From: Candidatus Saccharimonadota bacterium
Lineage (GTDB): Bacteria; Patescibacteriota; Saccharimonadia; Saccharimonadales; Saccharimonadaceae
NCBI GenBank assembly: GCA_028289065.1
Contig: JAQGHA010000009.1
Location: 1-64,000 of the forward strand
DNA: 64,000 nucleotides
Direction: 5' to 3'
Within the stretch, counting starts at the first letter, position 1; each line of letters starts with the position of its first letter. Position numbers and translations under genes: made by a program. Positions 39,908-50,347 of this stretch are shown piece after piece. The notes beneath the pieces are model-generated. The model had not been told where the DNA came from, searched no databases, and saw nothing but the letters and a program-made list of their open reading frames with translations.

Positions 39908-39916
39908 CTTGGTGCG
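39908..39916. repeat. Left attachment core (attL/attR, CTTGGTGCG)
   Basis: Identical 9 nt to 50259-50267; minus strand CGCACCAAG = tRNA-Leu 3' end + AG. Confidence 0.7.
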
Positions 39917-40057
39917 CCAGGTGAACAAACCTTTGAACTTATGGACCAGATAGCTGAATGGCTCCTTCAAAACCTTGTCGATAGCTCCTTCGCAACACCA
40001 AAGTTGTCCGTCACAGAACGCATATCCCACTTATCTCAACAGGTCTACACGTACTAA
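39917..40057 (+). pseudogene. Displaced C-terminal coding segment of the serine integrase (PGEQTFELMDQIAEWLLQNLVDSSFATPKLSVTERISHLSQQVYTY*)
   Basis: Open frame from att core codons CTT GGT GCG, the same phase as the integrase codons CTT GGT GCG at 50259-50267; no start of its own upstream. Confidence 0.7.
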
Positions 40058-40312
40058 TTATAATCAGCAAGACGGTATTTGAACCAAGAGAGTGGATATT
40101 ATTTGTTTTGAGCGGGTGTATAATAAGGTCCAGAAGTTACGCACACTAGCATTTGCAAAGCGCCCCTGGCTATCTTATACATACGAATCAGTTCCCTGTC
40201 GTGAATGCGCTATCATCGGTTAGCAAGTTCCACCAGGTAGCTCCAAATCTAAACCCGTATAGCTAAATCTCTTTTTTAGTTATTTTTTATATCTTAGACA
40301 AGGAACTTTCGT

Positions 40313-40597
40313 ATGGATCCAGCCTCACTAATTAATGAACGTGTAGATGTCGTCCTGATACATTATGCCAATGCATCAGAGCGACTTCTTTGCGTTCCCT
40401 ACAAGATGAAATACCGTAATCAGGAGGTTATCTTTACCGTATTTGGAATGAGACACCCAACAAGCAAAGGAAAACGAATGCTGCATGTATTTGAAATGAG
40501 TGATGGCATTAACGACTATAGACTTGAGTACGACGCTGAGAGACTTACGTGGGTCCTCGTGAGTATCATGGAGGGACACTACAATGGACGACATTAA
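40313..40597 (+). CDS. Hypothetical protein coupled to Y-family polymerase (YolD-like position)
   Basis: 94-aa ORF overlapping the polymerase start by 14 nt. Confidence 0.6.
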   Translation: MDPASLINERVDVVLIHYANASERLLCVPYKMKYRNQEVIFTVFGMRHPTSKGKRMLHVFEMSDGINDYRLEYDAERLTWVLVSIMEGHYNGRH

Positions 40598-41837
40598 CAA
40601 AGAAGAGCCAATGGTAATGCACATAGATCTAAACAGTGCTTTTGCCACAACGGAACAGCAGGCTCACCCAAGCCTTCGAGGCAAGCCAATGGGTGTAACA
40701 AATCGATTATCGAAAGAATGTTGCGTTATTGCAGCAAGCTATGAAGCAAAGGCGCTTGGTATCAAGGTCGGCACTCGGCTAAGCGAAGCCCGGGCTATAT
40801 GTCCAGATTTTATAATGCTTGAAACAGACGCGCCAAAATACCATGTCGTCTACCAGAAGCTTGTAACGATTATGAGAAGTTATTCCCCAAAGGTAGAAAT
40901 GAAAAGTATTGATGAAGGTATTATTGATTTCCACGGAATGGGACCCGTGCTTAATGGTCGAACACTTACTGAAATTGGCTACGAGATCAAGCAGCGTGTA
41001 AAAGATGAAATCGGTGATTGGATGCGAATCAACATCGGAATAGGAACTAACAGATTTTTAGCAAAGGAAGCTGCAGGCTGGCATAAACCTGATGGCTTAG
41101 ACGTGATCGACTATCGTAATTTAAAAGCATACTACAAAGACAGGAAGCTAACCGACCTTAGCGGAATTGCTGACGGTTACGGTGCTCGCCTAAACTCTTA
41201 TAATATTTTCAGCCCAATGCAGTTTTTAGCTGCCAAAGAGTACACTCTGAAAAAGCAGGTTTTCAGAAGTATCGTCGGGACGTATTGGTACCGACGACTA
41301 AGGGGTTGGGAAGTGGATGAATACGACACTAAGCTAGGTATGGTTGGCCGTCAATGGGTTGTCGCAAGCCCTACTCATAAAAGCGACTATCTACTCCCCT
41401 GTCTTGCATTCTTGTGCGAAACGGCCGGCGTGAAGCTTCGTTTTAGGAATGTTGAAGCGCGTGGTATATGTGTTTGGGCCACACTCCAAAACGGCGAGTT
41501 GTTTAGATTAAAGCGCATCTACAAATCGACATTCTTCACAAACCAAGAAGTATATCGCAGAGCGATGGAGCTTTTTAATAAACGTCCTAGTGGAGCAGTT
41601 GTTACAACCATAGGAGTGTATTGCTATAGCCTCGAGTCATCGAAAGAAAGCCAGCTTAGTATGTTTGAAGATATAGCAAAAATGGGTGACCTAACTAAAG
41701 CAATGGATGAGATAAATGAGTTTTATGGCAAGATGACGTTACACATGGCTACCACCCTTGAAGGAAAAAAGATCATCAAACAGAAGATACCGTTTGGTGG
41801 TACAGAGTACTTTGACCTACTTCTCAAGTCTGCCTAA
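40584..41837 (+). CDS. Y-family DNA polymerase (DinB/UmuC-like)
   Basis: VMHIDLNSAFATTEQQAHPSLRGKPMGV, MKSIDEGIIDF, NIGIGTNRFLAKEAA. Confidence 0.92.
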   Translation: MDDINKEEPMVMHIDLNSAFATTEQQAHPSLRGKPMGVTNRLSKECCVIAASYEAKALGIKVGTRLSEARAICPDFIMLETDAPKYHVVYQKLVTIMRSYSPKVEMKSIDEGIIDFHGMGPVLNGRTLTEIGYEIKQRVKDEIGDWMRINIGIGTNRFLAKEAAGWHKPDGLDVIDYRNLKAYYKDRKLTDLSGIADGYGARLNSYNIFSPMQFLAAKEYTLKKQVFRSIVGTYWYRRLRGWEVDEYDTKLGMVGRQWVVASPTHKSDYLLPCLAFLCETAGVKLRFRNVEARGICVWATLQNGELFRLKRIYKSTFFTNQEVYRRAMELFNKRPSGAVVTTIGVYCYSLESSKESQLSMFEDIAKMGDLTKAMDEINEFYGKMTLHMATTLEGKKIIKQKIPFGGTEYFDLLLKSA

Positions 41838-41913
41838 TAAATAACGAACTACACAAAGGTTACTAAAATTTGGAAAAGTTCTATAATAGCCCCAGAAAGC
41901 ATATGAATATTTC

Positions 41914-43146
41914 ATGATTATATATATTGATACTAATAAATATTTGCAATTCTTTACTCCCTCTAGTGAACAATTCAAGTCTCTTGAGATACTCAAAAAT
42001 AACATAAAGAGTAAGGACATTACGTTGCTCTTTCCACGTATAACTCAAGATGAGCTGCTTCGGAATGTGTTCTCAGTACAAGCAGTTTACGTGTCTGGCT
42101 TTAGAAAGCAAAGAAGCGAGCTCAAGATTAATTCATTTGCAGAGATTAACGCTGGTATCAAAAAAGACATCGAAAAAAAATTAAAGGTAATACAAGACGA
42201 TCTAAAGAAGCTTGAGACCGAATATCTGGCCGAGTCAGAAAAAATCCTGAATGACGACATAGCATTTTTCATAACTAATTCAGAAGCACCATCAGTTGAT
42301 GATGAGCTGTTTGAGGCTGCAAAGAAAAGAAGAATGCTAGGAAATCCGCCAGGAAAAACAGATTCAGTATTGCACATAGGTGATCAGGTTGTATGGGAAA
42401 CCATACTACGGGACTACACCCATGACGACGTGGTAATTGTCTCGGGAGATAAAGATTGGGCCAATCCACTCTCGTTGTACCTAAAAAAACCTGAGTTAGA
42501 CGATGTGTTAAAACGTGAATGGAAAGAGAAATCAAAAAAGAAAATTTCCCTTGAAACAAATCTCAGTTCGTTTGTTAAGAAAAATCTCAAATCTCAGATA
42601 CCAATTTCAGATGAAGAAGTCGAAAGAGAATCTGGCATCACGGAAGATACTATCGATACAGTTGAGGTCATTAATCGTCTAGGCACTATTAATTCAAATC
42701 CCTGGAGAGGTATAGACTTTAGCTCAATTAATAACAATATAGGCCTTGCGGATACACTGCAAGCAATGCATGGCATGACAAACAATTATGATATTGCCAA
42801 AAAAGCTTTTGGGGATTTCCAACCTATGAGCGAAATGATTAAGAGGAACATGACTGGCTTATCTTCGGTACAAGCAAGAATGTTCAAGGATTCTATGCCA
42901 AATATGGCAAAATTAATTAGTGATTCTATGCCTGATTTTTCTGGAGCTGCTTCGTTAATGAGGGATTCACTCTCAAGTTTGAATTCAACTGACTTTCGCA
43001 AAAGCTTGGGGTTAAATAATGATTTCTTAAATTGGAAATGCAAGTACTGTAAGGCTGAAAACCTATCTACTGCACTCACCTGCAATGTGTGCGGGAAGAG
43101 CCGTGATGAAGACGATAACGATAAGGCAATAGCTTCAAATAAGTAA
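41914..43146 (+). CDS. PIN-domain protein (DUF4935-like) with C-terminal RanBP2-type zinc finger
   Basis: MIIYIDTNKYLQFF N-terminal acidic motif, VVIVSGDKDWANP; C-terminal WKCKYCKAENLSTALTCNVCG. Confidence 0.75.
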   Translation: MIIYIDTNKYLQFFTPSSEQFKSLEILKNNIKSKDITLLFPRITQDELLRNVFSVQAVYVSGFRKQRSELKINSFAEINAGIKKDIEKKLKVIQDDLKKLETEYLAESEKILNDDIAFFITNSEAPSVDDELFEAAKKRRMLGNPPGKTDSVLHIGDQVVWETILRDYTHDDVVIVSGDKDWANPLSLYLKKPELDDVLKREWKEKSKKKISLETNLSSFVKKNLKSQIPISDEEVERESGITEDTIDTVEVINRLGTINSNPWRGIDFSSINNNIGLADTLQAMHGMTNNYDIAKKAFGDFQPMSEMIKRNMTGLSSVQARMFKDSMPNMAKLISDSMPDFSGAASLMRDSLSSLNSTDFRKSLGLNNDFLNWKCKYCKAENLSTALTCNVCGKSRDEDDNDKAIASNK

Positions 43147-43157
43147 TCGACCGTAAA

Positions 43158-44060
43158 TTAATATTGCCACAAATCCATCAAGCTCGGCTGTGTGTATTTG
43201 GGGAATTTATCACCGAAAATTTGTCCGAGCAGCTCAATTGCATTCTTATGATCACCGTCATACTCGGCCTGTGCGGCCCGCTTAGCTATGTTCTCTGCTG
43301 TCTTCAAACGCTGTAGAAAATTTGTATATTGTTGGAAGGTTAAGTGCTGCGATAAATCCCCACTGTGCCCACCTGGATCTTCCACCTTAATATAAGCAGG
43401 TGCCTTCTCAAAGAATAATGCAATCTCGCGAACGTAGTTATCACCCATTTTTGCGAACATTGTTGCGACCATTGTCTCCAGATGATATGAACTCAGTAAA
43501 GCTCCGTGTAATGAATTCCATTGTTTGATCAGTAATACAATGTGTTTCAGCCTGATACCTAGTACAGATTCCCTTGATTTATACCATGCTATTTGTGCAT
43601 CAGGATTTGTTGAAATCCACTGTCCATCTCCTCCCGGCAATGAGTAACCAGTACCGTCTGTAAAATAAAATACTGGTGCAATATCAACATGTAAGTCGTC
43701 TTTATAAAACAAGCGAACAGCTTGACCTCTACTACCGATTGTCTCAATCCTATAGTCAGACAAGGCGTTTCTTACTTTGTAAAGCATTTCTTGTGCATTA
43801 TTGAAGGTCCCGTGTATGTTCTTCTCGTTAGAAAACACTGCCAATACGTCAATATCACCAGGCGGCGAGGACATAGTGCCTTTAGCTGCTGAACCTATCA
43901 ACTGTGTACGCAATAGCGGCATATCAGAATCTGCTCCAAATGACTTTTCGAGATATTTATGCGTAGTTATCCGACGTTTTTCTAGAATTTCAACATGGCC
44001 CTGCTTTGGCAATAACTTGTTTAAATATTCATCTATTGCAGCTGCTGTATTATTGGCCAT
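43158..44060 (-). CDS. CD-NTase (SMODS-type nucleotidyltransferase), CBASS-like
   Basis: LIGSAAKGTMSSPPGDIDVLAVF (GS...DxD) and DDLHVDIAPVFYF (third Asp). Confidence 0.82.
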   Translation of the reverse strand: MANNTAAAIDEYLNKLLPKQGHVEILEKRRITTHKYLEKSFGADSDMPLLRTQLIGSAAKGTMSSPPGDIDVLAVFSNEKNIHGTFNNAQEMLYKVRNALSDYRIETIGSRGQAVRLFYKDDLHVDIAPVFYFTDGTGYSLPGGDGQWISTNPDAQIAWYKSRESVLGIRLKHIVLLIKQWNSLHGALLSSYHLETMVATMFAKMGDNYVREIALFFEKAPAYIKVEDPGGHSGDLSQHLTFQQYTNFLQRLKTAENIAKRAAQAEYDGDHKNAIELLGQIFGDKFPKYTQPSLMDLWQY

Positions 44061-44620
44061 TATTTATCGGCTTCATATTCCTGAAAGCCAGACTCGACAC
44101 TCTTTTTTGCCTTCTTCCAGGCTGAAACTGACGGTATTTCTGCGGTGGTATTCAATTCTTGCTGTCTTGCCACTAAAGATGATAAAGCTTGCCTGGCATC
44201 GTCATAACTCATTTTACTAACATCTACGTTTATGAATATGCGCGCATCTTGCTGAAGGGCTAGGTATGCGTTTGCTGCAGCATGTGCAGCAGTTTTTGTT
44301 TTGGGTGCACCAAGCGACGAAGCAACGGCCCCAAGACCTGCTGCACCTAGAGCTACCACACCAGCAATAGCACTACTCACCACCTCAGACAAAGCTCCGA
44401 CTCCAGCAATAGCAGCCATAATGGCCGATCCGCCACTCAACCATCGATCAACGAACCGCCAAGATTTTGAATACTCAAATTGCGTTTGTGCGCTATACAT
44501 GGCACTTTCGTGGACCCGTTCTGCCTCTTTGATCAACTGGTCCATCATATTGGTTTCGCTCATAGTGAATCCTTTTCTTATAATATTCTTAATTATAGAC
44601 CTTGTCTTACACATAGTCAT
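44060..44620 (-). CDS. SLATT-like 2-TM effector protein
   Basis: Two TM segments (GGSAIMAAIAGVGALSEVVSSAIAGVVALGAAGLGAVASSL) flanked by helices; stop/start overlap (TAATG) with CD-NTase. Confidence 0.75.
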   Translation of the reverse strand: MTMCKTRSIIKNIIRKGFTMSETNMMDQLIKEAERVHESAMYSAQTQFEYSKSWRFVDRWLSGGSAIMAAIAGVGALSEVVSSAIAGVVALGAAGLGAVASSLGAPKTKTAAHAAANAYLALQQDARIFINVDVSKMSYDDARQALSSLVARQQELNTTAEIPSVSAWKKAKKSVESGFQEYEADK

Positions 44621-44930
44621 TAAATCTCATTGAGCAGCGTACATAGTGGTCCTAACATGCATCATTACTCCCCCCCCTATGCTATGTATATTAAGCCAAC
44701 TGCGAACGGCGACCACACACCTACCTACATCTCTGTCTCTATAAAAAATACTGTTTTTTTTGGAAAATCATCAGGGGTAGAGCAAATATTAAATAATAGT
44801 AAAAATGCATCTTTTTTACAAAAAACGAAGATTGGACCACAAAAAATGAATACTAGTATGTCTCGCACATCCACAATATACGTGCGATAATCTTGATAAC
44901 GCACCAAGTAAAAGCCGGGAGACTATCACT

Positions 44931-46535
44931 GTGATCGAAAAAATTATGATTAAAAATTATCGTGCCTATCAGGACTTTACGCTGGAGTTTAATGATGGAA
45001 TGAATATCATTGTAGGTGATAACGATATAGGAAAATCCACATTGCTCGAAGCGGTGAATCTTGCGTTGACTTCAAAGCTAAATGGTAGACCTTTTGCCTT
45101 CGAGCTATCACCCTACTTGTTTAATAGCATTGCTACTGAAGAATATTTAGCCAAATTGATCGCAGGCGAAAAACCCACTCCTCCGGAGATAGTCATTGAT
45201 CTGTTTTTTAAGGAAAACGGCGAAACGGGTCTACTTAAAGGCTCCAACAATCTTACCGGCAATGATGCCGTTGGAGTGCGCATAAAGGCTTCAATGAGCT
45301 CAGATTACACTGTAGAGTATGAAAACTTTATCAGCGAGCCGGCTAAAATCAAACTAGTTCCTGCAGAATATTATAGTGTCGAATGGCTCGGCTTCTCGGG
45401 CAACGGCATAACCATGAAAAGTTTGCCAAGCTCTCCGTCTTTTATCGACGCTTCAGCGATAAAATTACAGAGCGGTGCCGACTACCACCTTCAATCGATA
45501 ATCAAGGAACACCTTGATCCAAAAGAACGCGTAGAGCTCTCACGAACCTACAGGAACACCCGTGAAGAATTTGCCGACCACGATTCCGTCAAAGCGATCA
45601 ACGTCAAGCTCGGCGGCTCTCAAGGCGACGTAAGCGATAGGAGCTTATCATTAGCAATAGACATCTCACAACGTTACACGTGGGAGAGCAGTTTAGTTGC
45701 TCACTTGGACGGAATGCCGTTCCAGTACGTAGGCAACGGTGAACAAAACACACTAAAAATACTCTTAGCACTAAACCGAAGAGCGGAAGATTCAAATGTT
45801 ATCTTAATCGAGGAGCCTGAAAATCATTTATCATTCTCCACACTCAATATGTTGGTCGCTAAAATAGCGAAGAAGTGCATCGATAAGCAAGTATTGATCA
45901 GTACCCATAGCTCCTATGTATTGAACAAGCTCGGTATGGATAGCCTTATTTTGCTCACAAGAACAACTGGAATTCGCATAGGCCAGGTACCTAATGAAAC
46001 CCAAGATTATTTTATGAAACTGTCCGGTTACGATACGCTTCGCCTTGTATTAGCCAAAAAAGTGATCCTAGTAGAAGGTCCGTCGGACGAATTGATAGTA
46101 CAGCGAGCATACATGGATGCGCATGCCGGTAGGCTTCCTATCGATGACGGAGTAGATGTAATCAACGTCAGAGGCTTATCATTCAAGCGCTTTTTAGACA
46201 TTGCCAAACTGCTAAAAAAGCCTTCACGCGTCGTTACAGATAACGATGGTAAGCCCGATGGTGCGGTGGAAGCGACATATTCAGAATACACAACCGAACC
46301 CATGATCGAGATACATGTAGGTAAAGATCCGCTATATAAAACACTCGAACCGCAAATCTTACATTCGAGCAATCGAGAAACTCTTAATAGAATACTAGGC
46401 ACAACTCATGCAACCGATGAACTGCTGGTTGAACATATGAAAAACAAAAACAATAAGACTACAGTAGCATTGAGGATATTTGAAAGCGCAGAGACCATTA
46501 CAATGCCGGAATATATCGTAGATGCCATCGCATAA
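44931..46535 (+). CDS. OLD-family ATPase-TOPRIM nuclease (GajA-like)
   Basis: IIVGDNDIGKSTLLEAV Walker A, ILIEEPENHLS, STHSSYVLNKL, TOPRIM VILVEGPSDELIVQRAY...VVTDNDGKPDG. Confidence 0.85.
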   Translation: MIEKIMIKNYRAYQDFTLEFNDGMNIIVGDNDIGKSTLLEAVNLALTSKLNGRPFAFELSPYLFNSIATEEYLAKLIAGEKPTPPEIVIDLFFKENGETGLLKGSNNLTGNDAVGVRIKASMSSDYTVEYENFISEPAKIKLVPAEYYSVEWLGFSGNGITMKSLPSSPSFIDASAIKLQSGADYHLQSIIKEHLDPKERVELSRTYRNTREEFADHDSVKAINVKLGGSQGDVSDRSLSLAIDISQRYTWESSLVAHLDGMPFQYVGNGEQNTLKILLALNRRAEDSNVILIEEPENHLSFSTLNMLVAKIAKKCIDKQVLISTHSSYVLNKLGMDSLILLTRTTGIRIGQVPNETQDYFMKLSGYDTLRLVLAKKVILVEGPSDELIVQRAYMDAHAGRLPIDDGVDVINVRGLSFKRFLDIAKLLKKPSRVVTDNDGKPDGAVEATYSEYTTEPMIEIHVGKDPLYKTLEPQILHSSNRETLNRILGTTHATDELLVEHMKNKNNKTTVALRIFESAETITMPEYIVDAIA

Positions 46536-47553
46536 CAACCTAGCTATTATCGCAGCAGCCGGTTCTCGAAAAACGGAGTATGTGATCGACAAGGCCTTAG
46601 GAATGCCCGACAAAAATGTCCTCATAACAACATATACGAACGAAAACCAACGCCAAATCATAGAACGTATCCAGGCAAAGAGCAATGGTACTGTTCCTGC
46701 TCACATTACTGTACTTGGCTGGTTTACATTCTTAGTTAATGAATGTGCAAGACCATATCAAAATGCTTTTACTCTTAAACCCGGCTACATGAAGTCATTA
46801 AATTTCATTGGTGAACGATACAGACTTACGTCAAAAAATTCACTCAGCTATTTCTTCGACAAAAACAGAGATATCTATCGCAATGGGGTATCTGATTTTG
46901 CGTGTGATGTAAACCAAATTACAGGCGGCAAAGTAATCGCTCGACTTGAGCAAATATGGGATCACATATTCATAGATGAGGTACAGGACCTGGTAGGCTT
47001 TGATCTTGACCTGCTTGATCGGCTCTTTGACTCAACAATAGGCATTACTTTAGTAGGAGATCCACGCCAGTACATGGTGCCAACGAATACAGCTAGCAAG
47101 TACAAGAAGTACAAAAAAGAGGGTCTGCTCGACTGGTTTGAGGAACGAAAAGCAAAAGTGACTATTGAACCACGCGTCCAAAGCCATAGATGCAATCAGA
47201 CAATTTGTGATTTTGCAGATGCACTTTTTCCCAATATGCCTTCGACAGAATCGCTAAACACAGAAGTAACTGGCCATGACGGCATTTTTATAATACCTCG
47301 TGCAGATGTCGCTGCTTACGTAGCAACCTATAAGCCAACTATATTACGCGAGAATAAGAACACAGATACTGAAGGGTTGGCAGCAATAAATATTGGTGTA
47401 TCTAAAGGTAGCACCTATGATCGTGTACTAATATTTCCAGCAAGTACTGTAATCCAGTACTACAAAAACCGTGACCTTGAAAACTTTAAGAGCCGAGAGC
47501 GTCTTTACGTAGCCGCTACTCGCGCCCGCTTCAGCGCGACATTCGTGGAGTAA
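46522..47553 (+). CDS. UvrD/PcrA-like helicase, short (GajB-like)
   Basis: IIAAAGSRKTEYV, HIFIDEVQDLVGFDLDLL, LVGDPRQ, RLYVAATRAR; overlaps upstream gene by 14 nt. Confidence 0.8.
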   Translation: MPSHNNLAIIAAAGSRKTEYVIDKALGMPDKNVLITTYTNENQRQIIERIQAKSNGTVPAHITVLGWFTFLVNECARPYQNAFTLKPGYMKSLNFIGERYRLTSKNSLSYFFDKNRDIYRNGVSDFACDVNQITGGKVIARLEQIWDHIFIDEVQDLVGFDLDLLDRLFDSTIGITLVGDPRQYMVPTNTASKYKKYKKEGLLDWFEERKAKVTIEPRVQSHRCNQTICDFADALFPNMPSTESLNTEVTGHDGIFIIPRADVAAYVATYKPTILRENKNTDTEGLAAINIGVSKGSTYDRVLIFPASTVIQYYKNRDLENFKSRERLYVAATRARFSATFVE

Positions 47554-47554
47554 C

Positions 47555-47791
47555 TTACCTGCCCTGAAGATTCCGAACGTCAGTATTAGTGAAGCCACGC
47601 TTACCCATTGCTTCGTCAAATCGCTGGTCCATATAGAAAAGATCTGCAATTCCACCTATAAAAAAATAGTTTAAGGTAATCAATCTTTTGAACCATTTCT
47701 CGCCTAGGTACATTCGGTTGATCGGGAACGGCATGATAGTACAAATGATTGTCAGCACTTTATAGGTTTTTCGATTTTTCACAGTATTCAC
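47555..47791 (-). CDS. TM2-domain small membrane protein
   Basis: 78 aa; FPINRMYLGEKWFKRLITLNYFFIGGIADLFYMDQRFDEA. Confidence 0.7.
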   Translation of the reverse strand: MNTVKNRKTYKVLTIICTIMPFPINRMYLGEKWFKRLITLNYFFIGGIADLFYMDQRFDEAMGKRGFTNTDVRNLQGR

Positions 47792-47825
47792 CTTCTTTAT
47801 TTAGCCCATATATACATCATGGGTC

Positions 47826-47977
47826 CGCTAAATAAAAAAGGACACCGTGACGGTGTTCTAAATCGTTTGTCCGCAATAAGCTTTCACCTACTGTTTCGCA
47901 CGGTGCCCATTTTTATAGGCGAATACCGCACGGAATTAATCCGGGCTAACTTATTGCGAATTTGAACGATTTAGAAC
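47826..47977 (-). ncRNA. Candidate structured ncRNA (long closing stem, internal hairpin, intrinsic terminator)
   Basis: Minus strand GTTCTAAATCGTT..CGCAATAAG pairs with CTTATTGCG..AACGATTTAGAAC; terminator ACACCG-tca-CGGTGT-CCTTTTTT; extended -10 TGGTATAAT about 7 nt upstream of the stem. Confidence 0.6.
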
Positions 47978-47983
47978 AAGTTG

Positions 47984-47992
47984 ATTATACCA
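47984..47992 (-). promoter_or_regulatory. Extended -10 promoter (TGGTATAAT) of candidate ncRNA
   Basis: Minus strand TGGTATAAT, TSS predicted at the start of the closing stem; -35 is weak. Confidence 0.55.
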
Positions 47993-48035
47993 TGCTCTTA
48001 GGACTTAACAGAGACAAGGGATATAATGGTCATCA

Positions 48036-48476
48036 ATGCGCAAGAACAATAGCCAACACGATTATGGAATCGTCTCCGATATACCTCAGGACGGTGACGT
48101 TTTGTATTGGCTGGATTACGATACGGACCAAGGAATACTTAAGTTGAACGGTATTAGGATCCAGCGGTTCCAATGGGGTAAACAGGCCGACATGCTTTTC
48201 ACAGAACTGTTCAGTCAGGCTGACGATATTAAAGTACTGGAAATCCAAGATGGATCAGTGGACTTTAACCCCATCGTAAATAACATTAAAATGCCACTTC
48301 TTTTCCGCAAGGCAATCTTTAGAACGTCCGACAGTGGAAACAAAATGCAAATCACAACCAGAATCAACAGGGAAATGCTTAAGAAGCACCGCGTTTTACA
48401 ATCGACAGTCGATGATTACATCACCGAAAAACGTGATGCTTTATACAAATCAGAAAAAACCAATAAAGTTCAATAA
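48036..48476 (+). CDS. Hypothetical protein
   Basis: 146-aa ORF inside the element. Confidence 0.55.
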   Translation: MRKNNSQHDYGIVSDIPQDGDVLYWLDYDTDQGILKLNGIRIQRFQWGKQADMLFTELFSQADDIKVLEIQDGSVDFNPIVNNIKMPLLFRKAIFRTSDSGNKMQITTRINREMLKKHRVLQSTVDDYITEKRDALYKSEKTNKVQ

Positions 48477-48525: not shown

Positions 48526-48675
48526 ATGAACACAACTTCACCAGTAAAAAACATACAGGCAGAAAGCCTTATTGACCTGGTCGAAGTACTTGAAAAGATT
48601 GAGCTGAATTACAATCGTATCGAATCAAACAGCGTAAGCATGACTGGTAAAAATGGACAGATTATTGTCTACTAG
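48526..48675 (+). CDS. Small hypothetical protein upstream of integrase (recombination directionality factor not excluded)
   Basis: 49-aa ORF MNTTSPVKNIQAESLIDLVEVLEKIELNYNRIESNSVSMTGKNGQIIVY. Confidence 0.45.
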   Translation: MNTTSPVKNIQAESLIDLVEVLEKIELNYNRIESNSVSMTGKNGQIIVY

Positions 48676-48704: not shown

Positions 48705-50282
48705 ATGGCACGAAACAAAGAACCTATCGATCTCAGCACTTTGCGATACGCTCTGTATGCCCGCAAGTCGACCGAAGATGAAGGAAGCCAGATGCGCTCG
48801 ATCAAGGACCAGATAGACGAATGCAAGAAACTTGCAAAACGCGAAAACTTGAACGTCGTGATTATCCTAGAGGAATCAAAATCTGCAAAGAAGCCGGATA
48901 ATAGACCGGTTTTTTCTCAATTGCTTAACGACATAGAGTCTAATAAGTACGATGCTATCCTCTGCTGGCATCCTGATAGGCTAAGTCGAAATATGCTAGA
49001 GAGTGGCAAAATCATCGACATGCTAGATACCGGTGTAATAAGAGACTTGAGATTTAATAGTCACCAATTCAGCAATGATGCCAATGGAAAAATGTTACTT
49101 GGAATGCTTTTTGTTTTCTCCAAGCAGTATTCAGAGGACCTTTCAGAAAAGGTCCGGCGTGGCATAGATCACAACTTTGAAGAGGGTAAATCCTCAGGTT
49201 TTCCTAAATGGGGATATAATCGCGATGCAGTGTCTGGGTTCTATCGTCCAGATGATAACTTCGAGTATATAAATCAAGGCTGGGAAATGCGCTTGTCTGG
49301 TTCCTCGATGGAAGAAATTCTCCAATACTGGCGAGATAATAATGTACACCGAATGACAAAACTGAACAGAAAAAGCCTAGTGTCTCGACGCGTAGACGTG
49401 TATAAAAGTACCGCTACTAGAATATTTCAGGATCCATTCTATTACGGCATACTTGAACAGGCCGAGCAAGAAGTTGATTTGAGGACAATATATAACTTCA
49501 ATCCCATGATTGACGAGAGTATATACGAATCAGTACAGGCTTTGGGCTATAACAGGTCTCGTACAAAGCCACAGGAGACCCGTGGTGGCGTGTTTTACCC
49601 ATTCAGAGGAATGGTATTCTGCGGAGTATGCAACAGCACCACACCAATGCGCGTAGGAAAGAATAAGAGTGGTAGCGGTACGTACTTTTTGTCATACCGA
49701 TGCGACAACAAGCTATGCACCCGTAAAGTTAAGTCCGTAAGAGCCAAATATATAATGGACGACTTGTATGAAACTCTGGATAAACTCAAATTCACTGAGA
49801 ACGAATACTCCCAGTACAGTAAACATATTGAAAACTATACTGACGAAAGCCTGGTTGAGATCAGAACTCTACTTAGAAGCCGTAAGGCTTTAAAAACGAA
49901 TAAGGAAAATCAGCGAAAAGAGATGTCTTTAAAACTTGCCAACCTTGGCAAAAAGTCGCTAGCTTATGCAGATGTAAATGAATACCTGGAGAATTTACAA
50001 AACGAAATTATAGATTTACAAGCAGAAATCCTCACCTTAGAAGCAAAAATGGCAGATCCAGCCAAGATAATGTTGAGCAAAAATGAGTTTTTGAACTTGG
50101 CAAATTCAGCCGCTGACAAGATGAGAGCTGGGGCTGCAGTCGAAAAAGACATGCTTGCACGAATATTGCTTTTGAACTTGACCATAAATAACGAAATGGT
50201 CCCCTCCTACCAGTGGAGAGAACCATTCGCTGACTTGCTAAAAGCCAAATCAATTTCACTTGGTGCGAAGAGCGGGACTTGA
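48705..50282 (+). CDS. Large serine recombinase / integrase
   Basis: YALYARKSTEDEGSQMRSIKDQIDEC (catalytic Ser), CWHPDRLSRN, zinc ribbon CGVCNS...CDNKLC, coiled coil; stop codon lies inside tRNA-Leu. Confidence 0.93.
   Translation: MARNKEPIDLSTLRYALYARKSTEDEGSQMRSIKDQIDECKKLAKRENLNVVIILEESKSAKKPDNRPVFSQLLNDIESNKYDAILCWHPDRLSRNMLESGKIIDMLDTGVIRDLRFNSHQFSNDANGKMLLGMLFVFSKQYSEDLSEKVRRGIDHNFEEGKSSGFPKWGYNRDAVSGFYRPDDNFEYINQGWEMRLSGSSMEEILQYWRDNNVHRMTKLNRKSLVSRRVDVYKSTATRIFQDPFYYGILEQAEQEVDLRTIYNFNPMIDESIYESVQALGYNRSRTKPQETRGGVFYPFRGMVFCGVCNSTTPMRVGKNKSGSGTYFLSYRCDNKLCTRKVKSVRAKYIMDDLYETLDKLKFTENEYSQYSKHIENYTDESLVEIRTLLRSRKALKTNKENQRKEMSLKLANLGKKSLAYADVNEYLENLQNEIIDLQAEILTLEAKMADPAKIMLSKNEFLNLANSAADKMRAGAAVEKDMLARILLLNLTINNEMVPSYQWREPFADLLKAKSISLGAKSGT
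50259..50267. repeat. Right attachment core (CTTGGTGCG) at tRNA-Leu 3' end
   Basis: Identical to 39908-39916. Confidence 0.7.
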
Positions 50283-50347
50283 ACCCGCACGGCCGTGAAG
50301 CCAAGAGATTTTAAGTCTCTCGTGTCTACCAATTCCACCATCCTCGC
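50261..50347 (-). tRNA. tRNA-Leu (anticodon TAA), CCA encoded
   Basis: Minus strand GCGAGGATGGTGGAATTGGTAGACACGAGAGACTTAAAATCTCTTGGCTTCACGGCCGTGCGGGTTCAAGTCCCGCTCTTCGCACCA; long variable arm; loop CTTAAAA. Confidence 0.95.

Follow-up and report, generated by a model that had tools for sequence, protein, structure and literature searches.

A serine integrase family of Saccharibacteria with attP inside the integrase gene and a predicted exchange of the C-terminus on integration

Most phage integration systems have attP adjacent to the integrase gene, int (PMC5311408). The window analysed here, which is the whole stretch of 64,000 nucleotides of contig JAQGHA010000009.1 from a Candidatus Saccharimonadota bacterium with a genome of about 933 kb, carries a large serine recombinase gene that ends inside a tRNA gene and, far to the left, a second copy of the same short core followed by an open frame. 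The locus raises the question of whether attP lies within int itself, so that the free and the integrated element would encode integrases with different C-termini. The element consists of the following features:

39908-39916, + strand: left copy of the core, CTTGGTGCG, in attL; the left boundary of the element, up to which tails of the same family have unrelated flanks
39917-40057, + strand: 46-codon integrase tail with its stop, parted from int by integration; a circular form, or an adjacent element, would rejoin the two
40313-48476, no single strand assigned: cargo with a Y-family polymerase-like gene, a PIN_12 protein, a CBASS-type cyclase with 2TM effector, Gabija GajA and GajB, and small ORFs (Pfam, PADLOC)
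48526-48675, + strand: conserved 49-aa ORF directly upstream of int
48705-50282, + strand: large serine recombinase in its short (integrated) form, 525 aa, ending GAKSGT from tRNA-Leu (Pfam Resolvase, Recombinase, Zn_ribbon_recom)
50259-50267, + strand: core copy at the right end, CTTGGTGCG, in frame with int and overlapping the CCA end of tRNA-Leu (attR)
50261-50347, - strand: target gene tRNA-Leu(taa), called with ARAGORN; its CCA end lies within the core, the gene stays intact and the site is empty in relatives

At the right end, the int frame reads TCA, the core (CTT GGT GCG) and then AAG AGC GGG ACT TGA, with the stop at 50280-50282 inside tRNA-Leu(taa). At the left end, CTT GGT GCG is followed in the same phase by 46 sense codons (CCA to TAC) and a TAA stop at 40055-40057. 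Five genomes of the same genus showed an empty tRNA-Leu/tRNA-Cys site, in which the LemA-side flank is followed by tRNA-Leu and tRNA-Cys without the element, and in L245 the reconstructed site aligns uninterrupted across the junction. As the locus is free of the element in these relatives, the 10.35-kb stretch between the core at 39908 and tRNA-Leu is an insertion, and its ends agree with those given in the earlier note; the coordinates and letters given there for both ends are exact. The crossover bases are bounded only by the common TGGTGC-like core. IMG/VR and phage records contained no close match to a free copy and no sequenced free circle; the circular junction of the 10.35-kb element would read int-core-tail.

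By our estimate, a random frame as long as the tail is open with a probability of about 0.1, and a 46-codon frame together with a 9-bp repeat is weak evidence by itself; what makes the window tail decisive is its homologues. The search of 295 genomes of the family with this tail returned homologues at 31-36% identity, several of them located 4-6 kb upstream of an integrase that is 50-54% identical to that of the window and itself ends in a tRNA gene. The iterated tail profile gave 61 matches, from which 55 left ends in 20 sequence clusters were retained; the tails of the family are 44-48 codons long, and those found with the profile start nearly always exactly at the GGT/GGC core. When the profile was built without the window, the window tail was the sole significant frame among 1352 window frames (E 3.8e-6). 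The tails have two features, the helix-like block FExIxxIAxWL and, in nearly all clusters, a conserved C-terminus of the form aromatic-x-aromatic or aromatic-x-leucine; their comparison with Pfam gave no convincing match.

At most about the first 28 bp of the tail, which hold the attP half-site motif, could serve as recombination site, and the substitution analysis was restricted to the part beyond them. From codon 11 onwards, 19 disjoint tail pairs showed pS of 0.204, pN of 0.027 and dN/dS of 0.115 (Fisher 6e-31), and this signal vanishes in the other two reading frames. Judged by these substitutions, the tail evolves as a protein. A frame open by chance, or conservation of the DNA site only, would be compatible with the motif and with the estimate given above, but beyond the half-site there are many synonymous and few replacement changes in the int frame only, homologous tails occur across the whole family and the profile lacking the window still finds its tail, so that this reading is hardly credible and we regard it as refuted. 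The tail is split from int in integrated copies and yet remains under lasting selection, which suggests a regular circular phase of the elements, and its selection as a protein argues strongly for a role of the long form in the episomal phase. Translation of the tail from a start of its own in the integrated copy is unlikely, as the ATG of the window tail is not kept in other tails.

The constraint on the first codons of the tail has another character, which is apparent from three copies of a short motif:

39933-39938, + strand: TTGAAC at +22 from the core G, inside tail codons; putatively the zinc-domain motif in the P' half-site of attP, shifted by 5 bp compared with +17 in the tRNA T-loop
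50279-50284, + strand: TTGAAC at +17, within the tRNA-Leu T-loop; putatively the zinc-domain motif in the half-site that comes from attB
40079-40084, + strand: second copy of TTGAAC, at +168, just past the tail stop; all 22 representative left ends have such a copy, between +157 and +170

The spacing of T[T/C]GAAC from the core G is +17 in attR and +22 in the tail in 12 of the 15 paired elements, a comparison that concerns one half-site only; of the 20 tail clusters, 19 have the motif at +22. Ahead of GAA, the encoded residue can be F, Y, H, L, P or S, whereas GAAC itself is constant, which indicates that the constraint at this motif acts on the DNA. According to Rutherford and colleagues, attP carries the zinc-domain motif of an A118-type integrase 5 bp farther outward than attB does (PMC3783163), and A118 attP needs specific sequence across 22 bp either side of the crossover (PMC3556126); the window family thus has the 5-bp outward shift in common with large serine recombinases. 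No constant motif was seen in the left arms of the att sites, and this absence may let one family use many tRNA genes. The second motif copy has the same orientation as the first and varies with it by family (ACGAAC with ACGAAC, TTGAAC with TTGAAC), and it looks like a second putative integrase-binding site.

More than 20 elements have integrase, tRNA and tail on one contig, and their targets are tRNA-Leu, Lys, Met, Ile, Gln and Pro; all family counts refer to sampled genomes, many of them metagenome assemblies. Near-identical integrases diverge exactly from the core onward according to the tRNA gene entered (L057 vs L067, L052 vs L068), and the replacement C-termini are short and variable, a few residues read antisense from the tRNA gene. 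The same anatomy was found in a single-contig genome (G305) from another family of the same order. Candidate tails also accompany some more divergent integrases located at other tRNA genes, in the homologous pairs L183/L187 and L205/L208 and, singly, in the Shapirobacteria record L202. Tail exchange explains the ragged, unrelated C-termini of integrases at tRNA ends in these genomes, and it means that the annotation of integrated copies misplaces the int 3' end for the episomal form. The named relatives of the window integrase come mostly from Candidatus Saccharibacteria. The genome of the window has a second such element (L045, contig C5 of G000), whose integrase is 49% identical, ends in a tRNA-Met gene and has its own left-end tail. 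Successive left-end tails within a few kb, presumably relics of repeated or tandem insertions, were observed in L053, L055 and L100 (contig C7 of G089; three tails), and at L100:782 an integrase remnant is joined to the tail.

These replacement C-termini, being random tRNA-derived residues, indicate that the enzyme tolerates change at this end, as would be expected if attP lay in the last int codons by happenstance, the two isoforms were equal and the tail served stability or solubility only. An overlap of int and attP would also keep the module together in exchange, as has been argued for the suicidal integrases of archaea (PMC8371274). Such a compact overlap without regulation is, however, at odds with the strong purifying selection on the tail and with its conserved C-terminal end, and we consider it very unlikely.

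Joined forms of int and tail also occur in nature. About ten int-core-tail junctions were found, all of them in frame and mostly in decayed or cut-off integrase genes and in tandem arrays (L042, L050, L059/L195, L104, L116, L117, L118, L121, L125 and L171/L226). As read from these loci, a second element in a tandem array rebuilds the int-core-tail junction. One locus, L149 (JAFWHS010000003.1), encodes an intact 562-aa integrase with tail, while L152, 67% identical to it, ends GARDRT in a tRNA-Leu gene. The tail of L149 belongs to another subfamily, and the fusion therefore probably reflects tandem elements rather than a circle. The homologues with tail for which the earlier note had called were thus found, and no free element with an integrase ending before the core was seen among the relatives examined, which include no sequenced free circle. 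The note's placement of attP inside int is borne out by the homologous tails that start from the same core, by the empty site and by the selection at protein level, and its proposal of two integrase C-termini, one in the circle and one in the integrated copy, is upheld from sequence by the homologous tails, the natural fusions and the dN/dS values. That this exchange could act as a switch of directionality or stability, as the note also suggested, is plausible.

In the window integrase, a Resolvase-type catalytic domain (PF00239, E 1.3e-26) is followed by a recombinase domain (PF07508, E 1.7e-6) and a zinc ribbon (PF13408, E 3.7e-5) that, with 24.4 bits against a cut-off of 25.3, is slightly below threshold; the zinc-ribbon cysteines C306, C309, C333 and C338 are invariant. 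The structure model of L149, based on an alignment of 57 sequences, shows the coiled-coil insert of the zinc ribbon as long paired helices at 362-451, and its fold matches the structures of the SPbeta, phiC31, Bxb1 and A118 integrases. The family has the same domain order and fold as the large serine recombinases of A118/Listeria innocua, SPbeta (YokA/SprA), phiC31 and Bxb1. The body of the model is well predicted to about residue 513; confidence drops at 514, before the tail, and the core-encoded linker and the tail are of low confidence save one short helix, so that their packing on the body is beyond the reach of the model. All recognisable recombinase domains precede the core, and the short form, as predicted from these matches, keeps each of them. 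Because these domains end upstream of the core, the short form can probably still act as a recombinase, with the tail as an added modulator.

This bears on a reading in which the tail is required for catalysis, integration inactivates int and excision needs another copy, comparable to the proposal for the archaeal SSV/pTN3 integrases. The archaeal 'suicidal' tyrosine integrases (SSV1, pTN3, pT26-2) have attP within the int gene, with an altered product, and have been called exclusive to archaea (PMC8371274); their logic is the nearest to such a reading, the tail is conserved at the protein level and tandem or multiple elements, which could supply the long form, are common in these genomes. Against it stand the location of the catalytic, recombinase, zinc-ribbon and coiled-coil parts, all before the core, and the long intact int frames retained in most integrated copies, and we consider it unlikely. 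The archaeal integrases have attP inside their own int gene, as does the window family. They belong, however, to the tyrosine class (SSV/pTN3/pT26-2 superfamily), whereas the window integrase has serine recombinase domains; moreover, the archaeal gene is split in two with its catalytic part separated, while the window family loses only a C-terminal tail that follows the recognised domains, and the catalytic domain of the window integrase stays in the intact int frame on integration.

The other system to be compared is that of mycobacteriophage BPs and its relatives, in which attP lies inside the repressor gene and only the unintegrated form makes a protein with some tens of additional C-terminal residues (PMC4557955). 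The window family likewise has attP in a coding gene and an extension only when unintegrated, but in BPs the altered protein is a repressor with an ssrA-like degron in its tail, whereas here it is an integrase, whose tail is longer, looks helical and does not resemble ssrA. With BPs as precedent (PMC4557955) and an extreme C-terminus conserved in nearly all tail clusters, the tail might be a degron that makes the long form short-lived and leaves the short form stable. The lack of an ssrA-like end in the tails leaves room for other degron types, yet the conservation spans the helix-like block, which is beyond what a degron needs, and an unstable enzyme in the very phase that needs integration seems counterproductive; we regard a degron as quite unlikely.

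Of 72 loci, about 42 have a homologue of the ORF upstream of int at this position, with a family range of 45-55 aa and no Pfam match. The ORF includes one helix-like block, its C-terminal end is hydrophobic, and by position and size only it could be a directionality factor or a leader peptide; if it is a directionality factor, the tail need not be the sole control. The idea that this ORF is a homologue of the tail was dropped, as profile comparison gave no support for it. Among the cargo genes, Pfam and PADLOC identified no repressor. The cargo includes two anti-phage defence systems at 43158-47553, CBASS (cyclase 3e-82, 2TM effector 3e-47) and Gabija (GajA 3e-195, GajB 1e-106), with the Y-family polymerase-like gene and the PIN_12 protein next to them. 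Related ORFs that by eye resemble small helix-turn-helix or terminase-small-subunit proteins are common to some elements (L139, L173, L183, L187).

Read from the sequence, the anatomy is as follows: the P arm and the core are int codons, the core and the P' arm open a conserved extension of 44-48 codons, and integration at the CCA end of the tRNA gene leaves this extension at the far left end while int gains a short variable C-terminus. The comparison of these loci argues strongly that the free circle or a tandem array makes the long integrase and the integrated copy the short one. Most likely, the tail would favour or license recombination of attP with attB in the free element. Its loss on integration would alter the activity or the partners of the integrase, which would thereby report the integration state, and may help to keep the element integrated until an excision factor comes into play. 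Taken as a whole, the explanation in which attP lies in the int 3' end, long and short forms exist and the tail is a modulator favouring attP x attB in the free element appears to us fairly probable. Its stricter version, a state-dependent serine integrase whose long form is the integration enzyme and whose gene is rewritten by recombination, so that the integrated element makes nothing but an enzyme that lacks the tail and differs in activity or partners, is a tentative proposal that we hold to be possible but somewhat doubtful.

The nearest precedents, by our comparison, are the archaeal suicidal tyrosine integrases and the BPs repressor, so that attP in a coding gene (BPs) and in an int gene (archaeal tyrosine class) are already known. 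Described serine integrases have attP beside int, e.g., phiJoe (PMC5311408), whereas in the window family it lies inside int. In the literature searched, from which subscription journals were mostly absent, we found no description of a serine integrase of this design, i.e., with attP in its own coding sequence or with an exchanged C-terminus. Self-altering integrases, which have been called exclusive to archaea and are of the tyrosine class (PMC8371274), thereby gain a bacterial example within the serine class.

The recombination site and the C-terminus of the enzyme share the same DNA, so that integration edits the enzyme, and the family offers natural long and short integrase pairs for direct assays. 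Serine integrases serve widely as tools of genome engineering, for which a central question is how their one-way action is kept. The hosts of this mobile-element family are ultra-small bacteria, Saccharibacteria and their relatives, and if the state-dependent reading is true, site-specific recombination would act in them as a hard-wired protein switch that uses the sequence of a tRNA gene as the alternative C-terminus.
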